From Candidatus Nitrosotenuis chungbukensis (GTDB lineage: Archaea > Thermoproteota > Nitrososphaeria > Nitrososphaerales > Nitrosopumilaceae), in contig NZ_AVSQ01000015.1 in NCBI RefSeq assembly GCF_000685395.1, positions 124,001 through 188,000 on the forward strand: a stretch of 64,000 nucleotides of DNA, written 5' to 3'. The position numbers were made by a program, and so were the translations under genes. The notes beneath the pieces are model-generated. The model was not told the DNA's origin and did no database searches. It was given only the letters and a program-made list of their open reading frames with translations. Of this stretch, positions 1,227 to 63,799 are shown piece after piece (positions within the stretch are counted from its first letter, which is position 1; the number at the start of each line of letters is the position of its first letter).

Positions 1227-4200
1227 ATGAAGACATTATCAATATTGGCAATATTTCTGATTTTCGCATTTTCAGGAATTGTATATGCGTACGCTCAAGA
1301 AACCTCAAACGTTGTAATCAACGAAGTTGATACAAACCCTCCAAACGATGATGCAAAAACCATCTCCGAATGGGTTGAACTGTACAACCCGACAGATCAA
1401 AATGTCGACATCGGGGGATGGAAAATCGCATCGACTACTGCAACAAAAAAGACACTAACAATCCCGGCCGGCTCTGTAATAAAACCTGGGCAGTTTCTAG
1501 TTTATTCTTATACGAACTTGTGGTTCGTTGATGTCTCAGAAAAAGTTCAGCTAAAGAACAAGTCTGGAGAAATAATTGATGAAACTCTGGTGATGACTGA
1601 TCAAAAAAATGACTTCTCATCATGGCAGAGAAAATATGACGGACTTGATACTAACACGTCAAACGATTGGATATTCAGAATGTCTTCTGTGGGATCCTCA
1701 AATGGATCTCCTGAAACAACATCTGCTGGTAATGGGGATGCGATAGTCTTTGTAAATGTCGACAAGCGCTCATATGTTTTTGACGAAACTGCAATCATAA
1801 CTGGGAATGTCTCAAAGCGCATATCCCAAGAAAAGCCGTTTTTTTCACAGCAACAGCTGATAATCACAATCGATGGACCGGGCAGCTTTCACAAAACTAT
1901 TACGATGTATCCTGATCTTAATCTTAAATTCAAAACCTCAATCAAACTGGACAAAGCTCTGGGAGTGACTGAAGGAACCTATGATGTTACAGTATCCTAT
2001 GGCGCTGGATCTAGCTCTGTACTGTTATCTGTCGGTGACGAAATAGCTGCAAATCCAAATGCCGATATTTCTGAGCTGTCGATAATGGCTGACAAATCTG
2101 CATACATTCCAGGTCAGACCGTATTACTTTCAGCGTCAACTACCAAAATATTCTCCTTTGAGGGGCTCAAACTATCTGTGTATGATCCAAAAGGAAACCA
2201 AATTTACGCTGGAAGTCTGTACCCAACCGAAGGAAAATTCTTAGCAAACGTGTTCATGACTACCGTAAACCCTGTCTTTGGAACATATCATGTCGTTGCA
2301 GACTATGGGACACAGCACTCTGAAACCTCGTTTGAGCTTCTGCAGACTGTGACAAGTACAGAACCAATCGTACTTGTAACTGACAAAAAATACTATGGGC
2401 TTGGAGAGCCTGTTGTCATATCTGGACGAAGCAGCAAGCATGTTGTGGCGCTGGACTTGGAGGTGTTGCAAACCGGTGCATCGTCTGGCAAAGAAACAAA
2501 GAATGCTTTCAAAATGACTGGACAAATATCACTTAAAGGCGATGACACGTTCGAATTCAAAATTTCCTCGCCTACTATGACCCTTGGCGATTACCGCGTG
2601 ACAGTTTCAAAAGAATTTGGCAAGTCTGTTGCATACTTTAACATTGTAGAGGATCCGACTGCATACTCTGAAACTGAAAATAAGAACTTTGTATCTACTG
2701 AACAGGCAACTTATGATATTGGAGATAAGCTAGTCATTGTGGGACACGTGATCCCAAAAACAAGAAGCAGCTATGAGGCAATTCCTGTCTATGTCACGAT
2801 ATCAACTGAAAATGGCAAACCGCTCACCTTTATCGGGCAAGGCAAAACCGCAGGAAAGCCAAGTACCGATCCGCAAATAAAGTCATACTCGTTTTCGGCA
2901 GTGCCTGACATAGCTGGCAATTACAAAATAGACGCGACTGTTACCAAATCCGTATTCTTACCTGGAAACTATGTCATAACTGCGACATACGATGGAAAAG
3001 AAACATCGACAATGTTTGCCGTGATAGATTCGCTTGACATAGGCAACAAAAAACTCATCGCCAAGACTGACAAGAGTGTCTACGGGCTGGGAGAAATAGT
3101 AAAACTTGATGGGTCGATTACAACCGGACAATCTTCGGTTCAAATCGTACTTACAAAACCCGGTGGCAAAACCGTGAGCGGGGGCAGCAAAGTTGAGAAC
3201 AACAGGTTCTCTTGGACTTGGCAAATCCCGCAAAAAGAGCTAGACCTTATCACTGATCCGAACTATAGGGGGGAGAGGCCGACTATTTTTGGGACATACA
3301 AGATTTCAGTAAAAACCCCGTCTGAAACGTTTGACGTGTTTTTCAAAGTATCAAAAGATCCTGAAAATGACACGCTGAGCATAATTCCACTCGAAGTAAC
3401 CACTGACAAGCCCGTGTATCGTGCCGGCGAGAAACTTGTCATAAGTGGAAGCGCGATAAAAAGACAACTGACTACCGGTAGTGAAGGCATCACCCTTGAC
3501 CGCGTAAACGTGAAGGTGAAGACATCTGCCAACAAGCTCATCTATAATTCCGAACTTTACTTTGACACTGGCGGAAACTTCAAGACCACATATGACCTCC
3601 CTCTTACGGTATTCAAAGACGGCACTTACAAAGTAACTGCAATATATCAAAGACTGATAATGCAGACAACATTTGAGGTGAAAAATAACACTCCGATAAA
3701 CACTGACGAAAAATTAACTCTCTCCCTGAACATCGATAAGGAAGAGTACTTGCCTGGCGACACGGTCCACATATCTGGAAGTCTCAATAAGGTGATATTT
3801 TTGGATCAACTAAACCTTGTAGTTTTACTTGAGGATGAAAATAAAATTAATTGTGGAACTTTGTACTGCGGATTGGGAGGAAAGCAAATCGACCTGTCCA
3901 AGTACTATGATTCGGGTGCGTACAAATATGATTACGTGATCCCACAATCTGCCTCTCTTGGCAACTATGTTGTAAAAGTAGATGCGCAGTTTGGCACCTT
4001 TACAAAAGCTTTCAAGGTGGTAGAAAAGAAAATCACACCAATAGAAACCCAACCTAAAAAAATATCAGAGAAGTTCAATAGGATAACTGATTTAAGCATC
4101 CAAATACCTCTGGTGGAAAAGACAATACAAGACCAAACTGTGTCTCCTAAGGTGCTCCAAGGATCACTTGTTGTCAAACGTGACGAGGTATCCAAAGTCA

Positions 4201-4490
4201 ACATACGTCTCTTAACCGAAGGTGGCCAATGTATCATAGGCCAGACATCTGACTGCCTTGTATCAAAATCAACTAGGACTTTGGATTCTGATTACAGTAT
4301 TGTACAAATTGACGGCACTGGCTTTAAAGTGCAGTATTCCGGACCTGGCCCAATATTGGAAAAATTCACAATTATGCCTGAATCTGATTTGAATACAATC
4401 CAAGATTCCGTTTGGACAGTAGACCTGGTAAAGGAACAAGACCAGTACTCCAAATTTTATTATACAATAACGTACGTTTCAGCACAATAG
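1227..4490 (+). CDS. Secreted 1087-residue lamin-tail-domain protein with seven Ig-like repeats
   Basis: The N-terminus is a signal peptide (MKTLSILAIFLIFAF, cleavage near YAYAQ). A lamin-tail domain follows (NVVINEVDTNP, EWVELYNPTDQ, IGGWKI; residues about 28-110). The rest is a chain of beta-sandwich modules, each opening with a DKxxYxxGexvxxxG signature near residues 173, 286, 384, 495, 613, 726 and 836. No C-terminal membrane anchor is visible, so it is either released or held non-covalently to the S-layer. The family is typical of thaumarchaeal exoproteins, with no assigned role. It stands alone, downstream of a T-run at about 1101-1107. Confidence 0.88.
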   Translation: MKTLSILAIFLIFAFSGIVYAYAQETSNVVINEVDTNPPNDDAKTISEWVELYNPTDQNVDIGGWKIASTTATKKTLTIPAGSVIKPGQFLVYSYTNLWFVDVSEKVQLKNKSGEIIDETLVMTDQKNDFSSWQRKYDGLDTNTSNDWIFRMSSVGSSNGSPETTSAGNGDAIVFVNVDKRSYVFDETAIITGNVSKRISQEKPFFSQQQLIITIDGPGSFHKTITMYPDLNLKFKTSIKLDKALGVTEGTYDVTVSYGAGSSSVLLSVGDEIAANPNADISELSIMADKSAYIPGQTVLLSASTTKIFSFEGLKLSVYDPKGNQIYAGSLYPTEGKFLANVFMTTVNPVFGTYHVVADYGTQHSETSFELLQTVTSTEPIVLVTDKKYYGLGEPVVISGRSSKHVVALDLEVLQTGASSGKETKNAFKMTGQISLKGDDTFEFKISSPTMTLGDYRVTVSKEFGKSVAYFNIVEDPTAYSETENKNFVSTEQATYDIGDKLVIVGHVIPKTRSSYEAIPVYVTISTENGKPLTFIGQGKTAGKPSTDPQIKSYSFSAVPDIAGNYKIDATVTKSVFLPGNYVITATYDGKETSTMFAVIDSLDIGNKKLIAKTDKSVYGLGEIVKLDGSITTGQSSVQIVLTKPGGKTVSGGSKVENNRFSWTWQIPQKELDLITDPNYRGERPTIFGTYKISVKTPSETFDVFFKVSKDPENDTLSIIPLEVTTDKPVYRAGEKLVISGSAIKRQLTTGSEGITLDRVNVKVKTSANKLIYNSELYFDTGGNFKTTYDLPLTVFKDGTYKVTAIYQRLIMQTTFEVKNNTPINTDEKLTLSLNIDKEEYLPGDTVHISGSLNKVIFLDQLNLVVLLEDENKINCGTLYCGLGGKQIDLSKYYDSGAYKYDYVIPQSASLGNYVVKVDAQFGTFTKAFKVVEKKITPIETQPKKISEKFNRITDLSIQIPLVEKTIQDQTVSPKVLQGSLVVKRDEVSKVNIRLLTEGGQCIIGQTSDCLVSKSTRTLDSDYSIVQIDGTGFKVQYSGPGPILEKFTIMPESDLNTIQDSVWTVDLVKEQDQYSKFYYTITYVSAQ

Positions 4491-4523
4491 AAAAATATTC
4501 GATAAAAACACCAACTCGTTGTA

Positions 4524-5027
4524 ATGAACATCCAAGTATTCATGCTAAAGCAAGATGACCCAAAAAAGTGCACTGCGGCAAAGCTGGTGAAATTTGGACT
4601 GGCAAGGGGGGTTTCAAAAACGCAAAGCAATACGATAATTTTGGACCCATTTGCACCAAAGACAATCCTCAGACAGGATGCCGCCATCGCAAAATCCATA
4701 ACTGGAATTGACTGTTCATGGAACTTGGCAGAAAGCGCTTTCACAAGAAGATTTTCTGGAATCCCACGCAAACTTCCGCCGTTATTTGCGGGAAACCCCG
4801 TTAACTACTCAAAACTAAACAAATTGACCACCGTCGAGGCGATTGCGGGGGCCGCTTTTATTCTGGGCTATGCGCAACTTGCAATTGACTTGCTTGACAA
4901 ATTCAATTGGGGTCACACGTTTTACGAACTAAATGAGGATTTGCTAAAAGACTACTCTGAGATCAAGTCGGAAAGAGAAATTGAGCCATTATTGGTTGAA
5001 TATGGGCTTGTTGATAAGAAATATTGA
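4524..5027 (+). CDS. tsr3: Tsr3-type rRNA aminocarboxypropyltransferase
   Basis: This is a 167-residue protein of the DUF367/Tsr3 family. In eukaryotes and archaea, Tsr3 transfers the aminocarboxypropyl group of S-adenosylmethionine to a modified uridine in small-subunit rRNA during ribosome maturation. Matching features are the N-terminal QDDPKKCTAAKL, the ILDPFAPKTI segment, DCSWN, RKLPPLFAGNPVNY and LTTVEAIAGAAFILG. The length is that of archaeal members. It begins 33 bases after the exoprotein stop and has no obvious operon partner. Confidence 0.88.
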   Translation: MNIQVFMLKQDDPKKCTAAKLVKFGLARGVSKTQSNTIILDPFAPKTILRQDAAIAKSITGIDCSWNLAESAFTRRFSGIPRKLPPLFAGNPVNYSKLNKLTTVEAIAGAAFILGYAQLAIDLLDKFNWGHTFYELNEDLLKDYSEIKSEREIEPLLVEYGLVDKKY

Positions 5028-5093
5028 CCGATTTACAAATATCTAGTTTAGCGTAAGGATTTATGCAAATCCCATTTTCAGACGGTAGGTAAC

Positions 5094-7445
5094 ATGGCTT
5101 CAGAAAGTTCAGACACTGGTTTTGCAAGAAATCTGACATTGCTGGATGTGGTAATGGTTGGAGTCGCGGCAATGATCGGTGGCGCAATATTTGTGCTTGT
5201 GGGACCTGGCATGGCAGAAGCGGGGCCTGCCCTTATGATTGCCTTTCTGATAAATGGCGTCATTACACTGTTTACCGCGCTGACCTATGCTGAACTAAGC
5301 TCAGTCTTGCCTGACACTGGTGGTGGATATCGCTGGGTACGAGAAGGCCTTCCGCGACCAAACTCGTTTCTAAGCGGGTGGATGTCGTGGTTTGCACATA
5401 CCATTGCCGGAAGTCTTTATGCTGTTGCATTTGCGGCGTTTTTTGCGCACCTGCTAACTACCACTAATTTGATTCAGCCCTCGCCATTATTTGAAAAGGG
5501 ACTAGCTGCACTTGCCATCGTGATTTTTACGTTTATCAATGTCAGGGGAACCTCCCCTACTAGCAAAGTTGGAAATGTCATCACAATTACCCAAATCACG
5601 ATAATTGGCGTGTTAATAGTTGCAGCACTTGTAGCAATGGTCTTTACAAATCCTTCTTGGCCTGATAACTTTACGAATTTCTTCCCAAAGGGAATGTCTG
5701 GACTTGTAATAGCGATGGGCTTGACGTTTATTGCGTTTGAAGGATATGAGGTAATTGCACAGACTGGAAACGAACTAAAAAATCCGAAAAAGAACATTCC
5801 TCGAGCAATACTGATTTCGCTCTGCGTAGTAATCGCAATTTACATTCTCTTTACCTTCTCTTTCATTGGGGGGCTGTCGTCTGAAACGTATGATCAGCCA
5901 TCATGGCAATTCATTGGAAGCCATGGCGAAATTGGAATCATTGAGGCTGCAAAAGACTTTCTGCCTTTTGGCGCGTTAATTGTTATTGCGGGAGGGTTGG
6001 TATCAACGCTTGCGGCCCTGAACGCAACTACCTATTCCTCAAGCCGAGTCTCATATGCCATGGGGACTCATTACAATCTGCCGCACCTTTTTGGCAGGAT
6101 ACACTCAAAATACAAAACTCCTGCAATCTCGACAATTGCCTCTGGTCTGATTATGTTGTTTATGGCAATAACCCTTGACCTTACAGAGATTGCTTTTGCC
6201 GCAAGTGTGATGTTCCTGTTTCTGTTTGCCCAAGTAAACTATGCTGCAATCACAATACGCAGACTGTATGGGAAAAAACTAGACTATAGCTTCAAAACTC
6301 CATTCTTCCCACTAATTCCTATACTTGGAGCCCTTTCTGCCGTGGGCCTTTCAGTGTATTTGTTATTTACCCAGCCCCAAAGCTGGGTAATTGCAATTAT
6401 CTGGATAGTGATTGGCTTTGCAATCTACAAGTTTTACACCTCAAAAAAAGAAATTGAACACTATGCGCCTTTGATCTATAATCAGGGGCCACAAGAAAGA
6501 AAAGGCTACCGAATTCTCGTAATTTATCATCCAAAGCACGTTGCAAATCTCTTCAAAATCGCAAGCGCGATAGCCCAAGAAAAGGAAGGAGAAATATCGT
6601 TTCTTAACGTTACCCACATTCCGGTTCACCTGCCGCTTGCAGTATCAAACAAATTTGCCGAATCTGAAATCGAGTCCTTTATCAGTCTCAAAAAATCAAT
6701 ACCGCAATCAATACGCCATAGGTATCTTGTGCGCATATCCCATGATGTTACGGAGGCCATTTTGGCAACCGTTGAGGAGCAAGGGATCAACATCGTGCTA
6801 GTAGATTTTGCGTTTCTGAGAAACAACCGAAAGCTACTGTCCCTGTCCACCTGTGATTTTGTCGGGGTGCGATTTGGGAAAAACTTTGAGGAAGATCTTG
6901 CAAATGTGGTGGTTTCGTATGACAAGTCAAGGCATTCTGATCTGGGCTTGAGAGTCGCAAACGCGATGTCGATTGCATATCATAGCAAAGTTAGGGTCGT
7001 GCGAGGTGTAGTCGAGTCGCCACAAACTGAACTTGAAATAATGAATAGAATAAACGAGATGATGTTTGATCTGGAAATGAAAAAAGTTCCATTTGAAAAA
7101 GTCTATCCTAAAACGAAGAATGTGTCAATTGGCTTGTTGGAAAACTTTGATAAAATAGAATCCGAAATTATCATACTTGGGGCTGGAAATCAAGCAGACC
7201 AAGCCTTTAGCCCAAAAACCCTTGAGATAGTAGACAAGTCTAAAAAATCACTATTCATTGTGCGAGACCATAGGTTCTCAGAATTTCACGCAAGAACATT
7301 TTGGAGAATCATGTCGTCACGATTAAAGGAAAATAGGCACGTCTACCGGTTCTATGTGGACTTAGTGCACATTGGGCACCGATTACAGTCAAGACACACC
7401 AAGGACAAGTACGACGAGGAATACTTTCACTCCAAGCTTAAGTAA
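5094..7445 (+). CDS. APC-superfamily amino-acid permease fused to a C-terminal USP-like region
   Basis: The first ~450 residues are an APC transporter: the N-terminal TLLDVVMVGVAAMIGGAIFV segment and about twelve hydrophobic helices, including GLTFIAFEGYEVIAQTGNE. The remaining ~330 residues are soluble. They look like two universal-stress-protein-like domains (RILVIYHPKHVANL; ANVVVSYDKSRHSDLGLRVAN; SEIIILGAGNQ). Permease-USP fusions are known in archaea and bacteria, where the soluble part is thought to bind nucleotide and tune transport. The substrate cannot be read from sequence. A TATA-like ATATCTAGTTTA at 5039-5050 supports a monocistronic transcript. Confidence 0.88.
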   Translation: MASESSDTGFARNLTLLDVVMVGVAAMIGGAIFVLVGPGMAEAGPALMIAFLINGVITLFTALTYAELSSVLPDTGGGYRWVREGLPRPNSFLSGWMSWFAHTIAGSLYAVAFAAFFAHLLTTTNLIQPSPLFEKGLAALAIVIFTFINVRGTSPTSKVGNVITITQITIIGVLIVAALVAMVFTNPSWPDNFTNFFPKGMSGLVIAMGLTFIAFEGYEVIAQTGNELKNPKKNIPRAILISLCVVIAIYILFTFSFIGGLSSETYDQPSWQFIGSHGEIGIIEAAKDFLPFGALIVIAGGLVSTLAALNATTYSSSRVSYAMGTHYNLPHLFGRIHSKYKTPAISTIASGLIMLFMAITLDLTEIAFAASVMFLFLFAQVNYAAITIRRLYGKKLDYSFKTPFFPLIPILGALSAVGLSVYLLFTQPQSWVIAIIWIVIGFAIYKFYTSKKEIEHYAPLIYNQGPQERKGYRILVIYHPKHVANLFKIASAIAQEKEGEISFLNVTHIPVHLPLAVSNKFAESEIESFISLKKSIPQSIRHRYLVRISHDVTEAILATVEEQGINIVLVDFAFLRNNRKLLSLSTCDFVGVRFGKNFEEDLANVVVSYDKSRHSDLGLRVANAMSIAYHSKVRVVRGVVESPQTELEIMNRINEMMFDLEMKKVPFEKVYPKTKNVSIGLLENFDKIESEIIILGAGNQADQAFSPKTLEIVDKSKKSLFIVRDHRFSEFHARTFWRIMSSRLKENRHVYRFYVDLVHIGHRLQSRHTKDKYDEEYFHSKLK

Positions 7446-60705: not shown

Positions 60706-61791
60706 TTATCCGCGCAGCTTTTGCGTCACTGTGATTTCAAGATTGTCGAAAAGCTTGAGGATTTTTTCTTTGTTTTCTTTTAGGTATTCTTTTCCTTTTT
60801 CGTCAATTCTGACTTTGAGCAATCTGATTTCTCGGTGCTCTTCTAGAAATTGATCAATCATCAGACCTCCAAGTTTGGCAGGATCAATAAACGAGTCAAA
60901 AGTCTTGGTTAGCTTTTCAGTATCTTCTTCCTCAATTACCATCTTTGTTGTCTGGATTGCCTGGCTTACTTCTTTTAGATTTTTGATGGTACTTGGCAGC
61001 CTTCTTGTTGATCCAAGGAGGCTTTTCTTTTCGGTTCCAACTTTGTTTGCTAGTTCCGGCACCAAGTCATAGGTATCGATTTTGTTCAGTCCCTGCCTTT
61101 TCTCACTTCTGATGATCATCCCCTTTTCTAATAATTTTTTTAATGCTTCCTCCGTTTCGATTTTGCTGATAAACGTGGTCCATACTATTGCTCCGACTGT
61201 GTGATAGCCCTGCCTGATTGATTCTAAAACGACAACCTCTACAATTCTTTTGAATCCGTCCTCGATTCTTACATTTGTAAAGTCCTTGTCTCTTACTGCC
61301 CGTTTTGCATTCTTTACGTCGATTTCAATTGAGCGTTTTAACGATTCCAGGGCATGTGGAACCTCGTTTAACAATGAAAGATAACATGCCTTGTTGTACC
61401 ATGCCATGCCGTATGTTGGGTCTGACTCTATTGCCTTTTCTACGCAATCAAGGGCCTTTCCGTAATTTTTTTGTTCATAATTGACAAGTGACTTTAGGTT
61501 CCACGCCTCGCTATTTGCAACGTCGATATCCAGTACTTTGTCATAGGCCTGCAATGCCCCTGCATAGTCATCTAGATGAAACTTGGAGTATCCTAATTTT
61601 AAGAGCGTATCCGTATCTGTGGCATCGAGCCTCAATATTTGCTCAAAGACCTTGACTGCATCCTCTAGTTTTTCATCTGCCATGAGGTGAATTCCTTTCT
61701 TAAAGAGCTTATTTTTTTGATAATCTGGATTTACGATGCTTGTTTCTTTCTTATCTGTAACTTCTGGAAGGTTTTTGGCCGGATCGTCCAT
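60706..61791 (-). CDS. TPR protein with C-terminal winged-helix-like region
   Basis: This 361-residue protein has four TPR units in residues about 28-165 (EDAVKVFEQILRLDATDTDT, YAGALQAYDKVLDIDVANSE, YGKALDCVEKAIESDPTYGM). A helical region (IVEVVVLESIRQGYHTVGAI; EEALKKLLEKGMIIRSEKR) reads as a winged helix, followed by a charged coiled tail. It may link protein complexes to regulation. A near-palindrome TACCGTTAATGGTA lies just upstream of its ATG (61792-61806). Confidence 0.8.
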   Translation of the reverse strand: MDDPAKNLPEVTDKKETSIVNPDYQKNKLFKKGIHLMADEKLEDAVKVFEQILRLDATDTDTLLKLGYSKFHLDDYAGALQAYDKVLDIDVANSEAWNLKSLVNYEQKNYGKALDCVEKAIESDPTYGMAWYNKACYLSLLNEVPHALESLKRSIEIDVKNAKRAVRDKDFTNVRIEDGFKRIVEVVVLESIRQGYHTVGAIVWTTFISKIETEEALKKLLEKGMIIRSEKRQGLNKIDTYDLVPELANKVGTEKKSLLGSTRRLPSTIKNLKEVSQAIQTTKMVIEEEDTEKLTKTFDSFIDPAKLGGLMIDQFLEEHREIRLLKVRIDEKGKEYLKENKEKILKLFDNLEITVTQKLRG

Positions 61792-61899
61792 TTACCGTTA
61801 ATGGTATGTCTTTTGAATAAATACTATTCCTGATTTACTCGTCATAAAACAGACAAATGATAGAAAATACAAAAATAGTTCCACATTAATGGTTGTATA

Positions 61900-63279
61900 T
61901 TGCCTAGCGACATGAAAAAATTAGAAATTCAAGGCGCGGCACCGTTTAAACAATCCGGCGTATACGAGGTTCAAATTTCAGTTTGCGGTGCGCAACCGTC
62001 TATGGACGAAATTAAAGGTAAGCGATTTAGCGCTTTATGGCAAGATATCTTCCACTTACATGTAAAAGACAACACGTTTTCCCAAATTTTAGGAAGCGAT
62101 AGTAATCCAATCCCCGCATCTGTCTTTGATCTATCCTCAGTTTGGATAGTCGTACGTGACCAATTCTCATCATTATACTCTGTATTTGAAGTGCAAATTA
62201 GGCAGCCTGAAGATACCACTCCCCCAAAGCAAAGAAAAAGAGAGCCCGCGCCAGAGCCTACAGAACCTATCTCATTTCATGATGATAAAAGATACAGCGT
62301 GAGAGAAGAACGCGGTCCTCCTGGACTTAGGGGTCCAACTGGCGACAAAGGTCCGACAGGTTCGCCTGGCGACAAGGGTGACAAAGGCCCATCTGGAGAA
62401 AAAGGTGACAAGGGCGACAGGGGATTAACTGGCGACAAGGGCGACAAGGGTGACAAAGGCTCAACTGGCCCACTTGGCGACAAGGGCGACAAAGGTCCAC
62501 TGGGTCCTGCCGGCGACAAAGGAGTTACCGGTCCTATTGGTCTTCAAGGCGACAAAGGAGTTGCTGGTCCACCCGGGCCTCAGGGCGACAAAGGAGTTAC
62601 CGGTCCTATTGGTCTTCAGGGCGACAAAGGTCCAACAGGCTCATCTGGCCCACCTGGTGATAAAGGAATACCTGGCAGACCTGGCGAACTTGGTCCACGC
62701 GGCCCACAGGGTCCTGCCGGCGACAAGGGACCTCAGGGTCCACTAGGCCCTCCTGGCGACAAAGGACTACGCGGCCCACAAGGAGAAGTCGGCGACAAGG
62801 GACCTCAGGGCCCTCAAGGTCCTGCCGGAGAAAAAGGATTGACTGGAGTTCCGGGACCGCAAGGTGAACGCGGTCCGAGGGGATCACAGGGTCCTGCCGG
62901 AGAAAAAGGATTGACTGGCCCGCAAGGACAACAAGGCGACAAGGGCCCGACCGGACCACACGGTCCGCAAGGTGAGATAGGTCCACAGGGACTGTCTGGA
63001 GAAAAAGGCCCGCAAGGCCCGCAAGGAATTCAAGGCCCGCAAGGTGAACGTGGCCCACCTGGTCCTAGAGGTCCATCGGGCGACAAGGGTCCAATAGGCC
63101 CGCAAGGTCCATCCGGCGACAAGGGCCCAAGAGGTCCACCAGGTCCACCAGGTCCGACTGGACAAGCTGGCATGTCTGATGAACAAAAAGCATTGTTTAG
63201 AGAATTACTTGAGATTCTTACTGCAAAGAACATGATTACAACTGAAGAACAGATAAAATTAATGAGCTATCTCTACTAG
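61900..63279 (+). CDS. Collagen-like protein with 95 Gly-X-Y triplets
   Basis: This 459-residue protein has three parts. Residues 1-138 form a globular N-terminal domain ([33 protein letters not shown]) ending in a Pro/Glu-rich linker. Residues 139-424 (62314-63171) are uninterrupted Gly-X-Y repeats dominated by [12 protein letters not shown] and GEK. The last 35 residues ([20 protein letters not shown]) are helical and could trimerise it. No signal peptide or anchor is visible. Start TTG 61900 or ATG 61912. The next ORF starts right at its stop. Confidence 0.9.
62314..63171 (+). repeat. Collagen Gly-X-Y repeat tract (coding)
   Basis: Glycine recurs at every third codon from 62314 to 63171 without a break: 95 triplets and a final Gly. 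Many triplets end in Lys (GDKG). The DNA shows direct repeats such as GGCGACAAAGG, but they vary in codon choice, so this is a protein repeat and not a CRISPR or microsatellite. Confidence 0.95.
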
Positions 63280-63585
63280 ATGCATTGTGATGGTGCTAAA
63301 AAATTGAGCGAAACAAAATCTAAAATTGAATTTAAGATGCTGGATTATGAAAGAGTGGGAAATGATTTTGTCGCATTCAAGCTGGAAGATGGAACGCTTG
63401 TTAAAGTTAAGGTTGATCTAGACCGCGTTGGCATCGCAACAAATCACAAAAATCCTGATGGGACTCCGCACTATGCTGTTAACACCTCGATAAAGATAAC
63501 CGTGATTCCAAGTGAACGAACGTTCTCAGTTGAGAAAAACATTAACGATAAAAACACGCCGCCGCCTGGGCAAATGTTTAGTTGA
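63280..63585 (+). CDS. Small hypothetical protein directly downstream of the collagen-like gene
   Basis: ATG 63280 directly follows the collagen-like stop (TAGATG) and opens a 101-residue frame. The core MLDYERVGNDFVAFKLEDGT, TLVKVKVDLDRVGIATNHKN and SIKITVIPSERTFS looks beta-rich, with no signal or membrane segment. The first 19 residues are less convincing and ATG 63337 could be the true start. It is almost certainly co-transcribed with the collagen-like gene, so a partner role is likely but unproven. Confidence 0.7.
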   Translation: MHCDGAKKLSETKSKIEFKMLDYERVGNDFVAFKLEDGTLVKVKVDLDRVGIATNHKNPDGTPHYAVNTSIKITVIPSERTFSVEKNINDKNTPPPGQMFS

Positions 63586-63655: not shown

Positions 63656-63799
63656 CTATCGTCGTCGCTTTTTAGCTGCAGTTTTCTTTGCGGCTTTTCG
63701 CTTTGGAGCTGCCTTGCGTTTTGGAGCTGCTTTTCTTTTTGGAGCTGCCTTTCGCTTTGGTGCTGCACGTTTAGCTTTTGACTTACGTTTAGTAGCCAT
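63656..63799 (-). CDS. 47-residue Lys/Ala/Pro-rich basic protein
   Basis: ATG 63799 opens MATKRKSKAKRAAPKRKAAP, continuing with further AAPKRK units and ending AAKKTAAKKRRR before TAG. Four consecutive AAPKRK-type repeats give a histone-H1-tail or bacterial-HC-like composition, so DNA or RNA binding is the natural guess. It is too short for usual gene callers. It stands between the collagen operon (convergent) and a partial gene. Confidence 0.65.
   Translation of the reverse strand: MATKRKSKAKRAAPKRKAAPKRKAAPKRKAAPKRKAAKKTAAKKRRR

Follow-up and report, generated by a model that had tools for sequence, protein, structure and literature searches.

The 64,000-nucleotide stretch of Candidatus Nitrosotenuis chungbukensis DNA analysed here (the window) encodes a collagen-like protein whose gene belongs to the core genome of the whole family Nitrosopumilaceae and is neither an oddity nor a recent acquisition. 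Nearly all sampled family members have one copy at the same chromosomal position, and its product appears to be without an export signal, which suggests an internal rod of about 60 to 160 nm. We give roughly even credence to the reading that this vertically inherited gene makes a cytosolic homotrimeric collagen rod acting as a tether or spacer, and it is the presumed cytosolic location that would make the protein unusual.

Architecture, charge pattern and conservation of the protein

The reading frame is open throughout and specifies an N-terminal region of 138 residues, a Gly-X-Y repeat and a C-terminal tail of 33 residues, arranged as follows in window coordinates:

61900..63279, plus strand: gene of the collagen-like protein (459 residues; TTG start, TAG stop), whose start is kept in orthologues as ATG, GTG or TTG
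61912..62214, plus strand: N-terminal domain, residues 5-105 (alignment A1 and AlphaFold2 model)
62215..62313, plus strand: variable, fast-evolving linker, residues 106-138 (identity and dN/dS comparisons)
62314..63177, plus strand: 96 Gly-X-Y triplets without a break, residues 139-426 (repeat count, charge periodicity and dN/dS)
63178..63276, plus strand: C-terminal tail, residues 427-459, ending in an invariant Leu-Tyr (alignment A2)

The sole Pfam match of the protein is Collagen (PF01391), with a score of 163.6 bits (cut-off 27.2), so that its collagen likeness is not a matter of chance; as the sequence-only reading of this DNA had proposed, a collagen-like protein is indeed encoded in an archaeon, and its relatives are those of the Nitrosopumilaceae. 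The same reading had described 95 unbroken triplets and a 35-residue C-terminus. The run is unbroken and the tail distinct, but the triplets number 96 (the last, GMS, lying at the tail junction) and the tail residues 33. The triplets include GDK (20 times), GPQ (14) and GPP (7); Pro occupies the X position in 44 of 96 triplets and Lys the Y position in 24 of 96, Pro at Y is low (11%) and the charge of the repeat is nearly balanced. As expected, it is the Gly and Pro codons that raise the G+C content of the repeat to 61%, compared with 42% for the window. Ninety-six unbroken triplets are compatible with a triple helix, and the breaks in other strains that had been suggested as a sign to the contrary are absent: all 56 complete orthologues compared carry a single unbroken run, of 68-185 triplets. 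Triplet number differs even among close relatives (96, 109 and 117), and this strong variation in length argues against a strict ruler.

The ordered feature of the repeat is a charge super-period of 12 residues rather than axial pairing. Triplets that pair an acidic X with a basic Y residue (Asp/Glu-Lys/Arg) return at every fourth triplet, with a mean autocorrelation at lag 4 of 0.48 over 56 orthologues, the z-score of which is inflated by shared ancestry; taken singly, 52 of the 56 have the period at p<=0.01, and the best lag is 4 or 8 in all. Axial Lys-Gly-Asp/Glu pairs, considered as a stabiliser, were rejected for lack of enrichment (6 observed, 7.2 expected in shuffled triplets). Because the repeat carries 36- and 72-base units at the DNA level, an old duplication may have set the pattern, which selection then kept. 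Controls were few and their outcome mixed: among a handful of other collagens checked, the period is absent from a charge-rich Vibrio phage fibre, and a Peribacillus protein with tandem units shows a four-triplet period in any charged residue, so the spacing is not unique to the Nitrosopumilaceae collagen family. That Asp-Lys could replace hydroxyproline as stabiliser of the helix is plausible, and a search of the genome for one hydroxylase family, the PF13640-type 2OG-Fe(II) oxygenases, found no member. Since bacterial collagens form triple helices that are stable without hydroxyproline by virtue of polar and charged X and Y residues (PMC8968730), the lack of hydroxyproline is not itself new.

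Repeat, N-terminal domain and tail are under purifying selection and the linker is not. Simple pairwise NG86 counts between close relatives give a dN/dS of 0.03-0.18 in the repeat, 0.01-0.23 in the N-terminal domain and 0-0.13 in the tail; for the linker it is 0.1-2.5, with identities of 0.20-0.92 within close groups. These values bear on whether the repeat could lack a triple helix in the cell and instead be a highly charged, extended or disordered linker that forms condensates, protects against osmotic stress or serves as a soluble spacer. The scarcity of Pro at Y, the near balance of charge and the absence of any sign of proline hydroxylation would suit such a polypeptide, and highly expressed disordered collagen-like proteins have been reported from marine Euryarchaeota (PMC5069720). 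We nevertheless consider it improbable, because none of 56 orthologues departs from Gly at each third residue over 68-185 triplets, the X and Y positions are under strong purifying selection and breaks would be tolerated in a disordered linker, as is seen in the real one at residues 106-138; moreover, bacterial Gly-X-Y sequences without hydroxyproline do form triple helices (PMC8968730).

The separate N-terminal domain that had been surmised is borne out by a confident AlphaFold2 model (pLDDT 93.3, pTM 0.85) of a small all-beta fold, which spans approximately residues 5-105 of the 138-residue region and is followed by the linker; alignment A1 of this domain comprises 38 orthologues. Four kinds of search gave no sign of kinship to a known domain: no Pfam family matches, Foldseek returns nothing at E<=0.001 from PDB and viral structure libraries, a PDB sequence search yields nothing convincing (the best entry is a C2-domain protein, E 0.27), and the consensus has no real match among plasmids (a single entry at E 6). 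The N-terminal region is also without a PHROG match at E<=1. Its motif may be akin to a beta domain found ahead of collagen or endosialidase-type regions in some bacterial surface proteins.

The tail, which is predicted to be helical, is the most conserved piece of the protein and closes with Leu-Tyr in 56 of 56 complete orthologues. Its profile has a single significant copy in the genome of Ca. N. chungbukensis and no relative in viral contigs, and in the phylum sample it is confined to the Nitrosopumilaceae but for one borderline match (E 0.006). Among the best 80 loci retrieved from named genomes, all carry Nitrosopumilaceae or AOA labels except a few with generic or conflicting ones, the nearest being Nitrosotenuis and Thaumarchaeota MAGs. 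One of these 80 is labelled Nitrososphaeraceae and probably comes from a genome of the Nitrosopumilaceae. JAJDDX010000236.1, labelled Phycisphaerae bacterium, also bears the archaeal collagen tail and is probably a contaminant contig in a Phycisphaerae bin.

Distribution, locus and origin of the gene

When sought elsewhere, as the sequence-only reading had advised, the N-terminal domain turned up in 105 of the 121 Nitrosopumilaceae genomes sampled and in none outside the family in the samples searched (the family, order and phylum surveys being samples of genomes rather than all genomes). It is present in 80 of 84 high-quality genomes of the family and in 22 of 22 genera, almost always as one copy per genome. 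A sample of 151 genomes drawn from across the order gave 34 matches, every one in Nitrosopumilaceae; other kinds of collagen repeat are present elsewhere in the order. The window protein combines the traits by which we propose to recognize a Nitrosopumilaceae core collagen family, namely the N-terminal domain, an unbroken Gly-X-Y run, the Leu-Tyr tail and an adjoining divergent TPR gene.

The gene order SiR-rhodanese-<TPR / COL>-(DS101)-<DRG recurs in most of 40 loci, with gene labels assigned by homology to the genes of the window (SiR, sulfite/nitrite reductase; DRG, Obg/DRG-type GTPase). The immediate neighbours are:

60706..61791, minus strand: divergent TPR-protein gene, which several families of the order possess; its C-terminal part is labelled winged-helix as a working guess
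63304..63585, plus strand: small gene DS101, 93 residues from the TTG at 63304 by orthologue homology (101-residue open frame from 63280)

Behind the winged-helix guess stands a match of the TPR protein to Pfam TrmB at a sub-threshold score only. In a high-GC uncultured Cenarchaeum (L080), an antisense frame (3393-7293 / 4426-7293) extends the TPR gene through the whole repeat; it is an artefact of GC-rich, stop-free repeats.

DS101 occurs in 56 of 121 Nitrosopumilaceae genomes, which represent 15 of 22 genera, although some few matches are weak. Within the order it is present in three families or more, and it is highly conserved, with 70% mean column identity. It has neither a family nor a structural match, and its AlphaFold model is modest (pLDDT 82, pTM 0.48), so that this neighbour, tried as a guide to function, gave none. 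Beside the collagen operon, at 63656-63799 on the minus strand of the window, lies a 47-residue Lys/Ala-rich peptide (MATKRKSKAKRAAPKRKAAPKRK...) resembling a histone H1 tail.

In sister families f3 and f8 no collagen gene separates DS101 from the TPR gene, and the two stand back to back. On the simplest reading, the spot between these two genes is where the collagen gene originated or was inserted in the ancestor of the Nitrosopumilaceae, and DS101 is the older gene, later lost or diverged in many lineages of the family. The recent horizontal transfer raised by the sequence-only reading finds no support and is disfavoured because a single locus is fixed across 22 genera and phage and plasmid records match mainly the Gly-X-Y part. 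For the same reasons we regard as very improbable that the gene is a remnant of a phage or virus tail fibre, or a recent gain from a phage or bacterium: its Gly-X-Y part does match tail-fibre families and more than 1000 phage records, at ~40-54% identity among the matches listed, but the N-terminal domain and the tail lack PHROG and viral-contig counterparts, respectively, and the neighbours are housekeeping genes.

Location and possible role

Just upstream of the gene lies a candidate promoter:

61863..61878, plus strand: promoter-like element GAAAATACAAAAATAG, an A-rich BRE with a TATA-like box, ~28 nt 5' of the start codon

The hexamer RAAATA starts at -36 to -22 in 48 of 56 orthologues, mostly at -28/-27, compared with 7% in shuffles, and the position of the start codon is conserved (ATG in 26, GTG in 20 and TTG in 10 of 56). 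Archaeal promoters carry an A-rich BRE beside their TATA box, and some archaea commonly produce leaderless mRNAs (PMC7289017). A TATA-like box at this distance points to a transcription start that coincides with the start codon or lies close to it, and thus to an mRNA that is probably leaderless or nearly so, leaving no upstream space for a signal peptide. The missing signal peptide that had been remarked on therefore holds: none is found in the orthologues, which also lack a hydrophobic N-terminus (the maximum 19-residue Kyte-Doolittle mean near the N-terminus is 1.14) and an LPxTG motif, and the genome of Ca. N. chungbukensis contains no sortase (PF04203), positive controls having been detected. 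Taken together, these features make a cytosolic location likely.

The genome also has a second collagen-like gene, which is split by the ends of contigs C20 and C21 (L009 8853-7012, minus strand, and L010 1-1263, minus strand) and encodes a signal peptide, an Ala/Lys/Asp-rich stalk and long VANGGSNNVSILLGTGTGSF-type repeats. Its product is probably a secreted surface protein; thus secreted and signal-less collagen types coexist in one genome. In a relative of the same genus (G076:C1, ~1252921-1255236), a 2518-residue open frame with collagen repeats is apparently a giant protein of the secreted type.

The contrary view, that the core protein is a cell-surface fibre or adhesin associated with the S-layer and exported without a cleavable signal peptide, draws on several precedents. 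Certain spore-coat types get to the surface with no Sec signal, the leader of BclA and F-Anchor serving in its place. An extracellular location prevails among known bacterial collagen-like proteins, which speaks against a cytosolic rod. Most prokaryotic ones act outside the cell (PMC8968730), and the leader used by the BclA and F-Anchor spore proteins is N-terminal (PMC11952670). Furthermore, an "LPXTG-anchored collagen-like adhesin" up-regulated at low salinity was reported in Ca. N. chungbukensis in 2026, the collagen-like protein of this related strain being described as surface-located and detected in the proteome (PMC13037477). That adhesin may be either the core protein or the secreted C20/C21 one, and its name may stem from an adhesin profile match: against the NCBIfam adhesin profiles NF038329/NF038330 the window protein scores 167 bits and its relatives at most 270, both below the cut-off of 325. 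With orthologues free of signal peptides, hydrophobic segments and LPXTG motifs, a genome devoid of sortase, and a separate collagen gene that does carry a signal peptide, we judge surface exposure of the core protein unlikely, though less so than a disordered repeat.

From the sequence we infer a triple helix, a trimer, a cytosolic location and a tether function, which would fit together as follows. At the general collagen rise of 0.286 nm per residue, three chains would wind into a triple helix with a predicted length of ~82 nm in Ca. Nitrosotenuis chungbukensis and 58-159 nm across orthologues; the cells of Nitrosopumilaceae are only ~0.2 micrometres wide. Small beta-sandwich heads would lie at one end of the rod and the conserved helical cap at the other; this cap probably either nucleates the trimer and sets its chains in register, or binds a partner through its invariant C-terminal Leu-Tyr. 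As a rigid intracellular spacer or tether, the rod would join whatever heads and tail bind, and charge pairs recurring each 12 residues (~3.4 nm) could allow rods to pack side by side or to bind a charged polymer. The fuller proposal, of an intracellular core-genome collagen in which a ~60-160 nm cytosolic triple-helical rod, its all-beta head and its C-terminal cap both new and its charges set in a 3.4-nm lattice, serves as a cytoskeletal spacer or scaffold and has a single origin by gene insertion between the TPR gene and its small neighbour, is tentative and in its entirety less probable than the simple rod.

Surface fibres, adhesins and phage tails are the roles in which microbial collagen-type proteins have so far been seen. 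A cytosolic collagen present as one copy in nearly all members of a family would, if true, widen the known uses of collagen and point to a structural element new to some of Earth's most abundant archaea. Strong natural selection acts on this archaeal collagen, which has no evident hydroxyproline, and its 12-residue charge period offers a testable stabilising or packing code. A surface-adhesin name for the collagen-like proteins of AOA may mislead the reading of expression data.

Comparison with known collagen-like proteins

A literature search found no paper describing the Nitrosopumilaceae core collagen family; a 2015 study put the archaeal members of the Pfam collagen family at 14 sequences (PMC4565658). 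The collagen-like proteins of marine Euryarchaeota are likewise archaeal Gly-X-Y proteins and belong to another phylum. The secreted C20/C21 protein shares the Gly-X-Y repeat with the core protein and differs from it by its signal peptide, a GxT/GPQ-rich repeat with few charged pairs, and the lack of an N-terminal domain or tail of the core type. Phage tail fibres (for example PHROG 6320 and 5073) are alike in Gly-X-Y composition, but similarity is restricted to the repeat, the ends are unrelated and no phage genes lie near the collagen gene.

The exosporium proteins BclA, F-Anchor and F-BclA of Bacillus are likewise Gly-X-Y rods that end in a folded domain on one side and a short docking segment on the other. 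In the archaeal protein, however, the N-terminus carries the folded domain and the C-terminus the short segment (a tail of only 33 residues), Pfam detects no C1q/TNF-like or DUF4183 domain, and there is no spore. The LPXTG adhesins Scl1/SclA and Scl2/SclB and Legionella Lcl resemble it in their long, uninterrupted and charged Gly-X-Y run, separate N-terminal domain and independence of hydroxyproline. Unlike these, the archaeal protein has no signal peptide, LPXTG motif or sortase and falls under the NCBIfam cut-offs; its N-terminal domain and tail are unrelated to theirs, and its gene is a universal core gene of the family.
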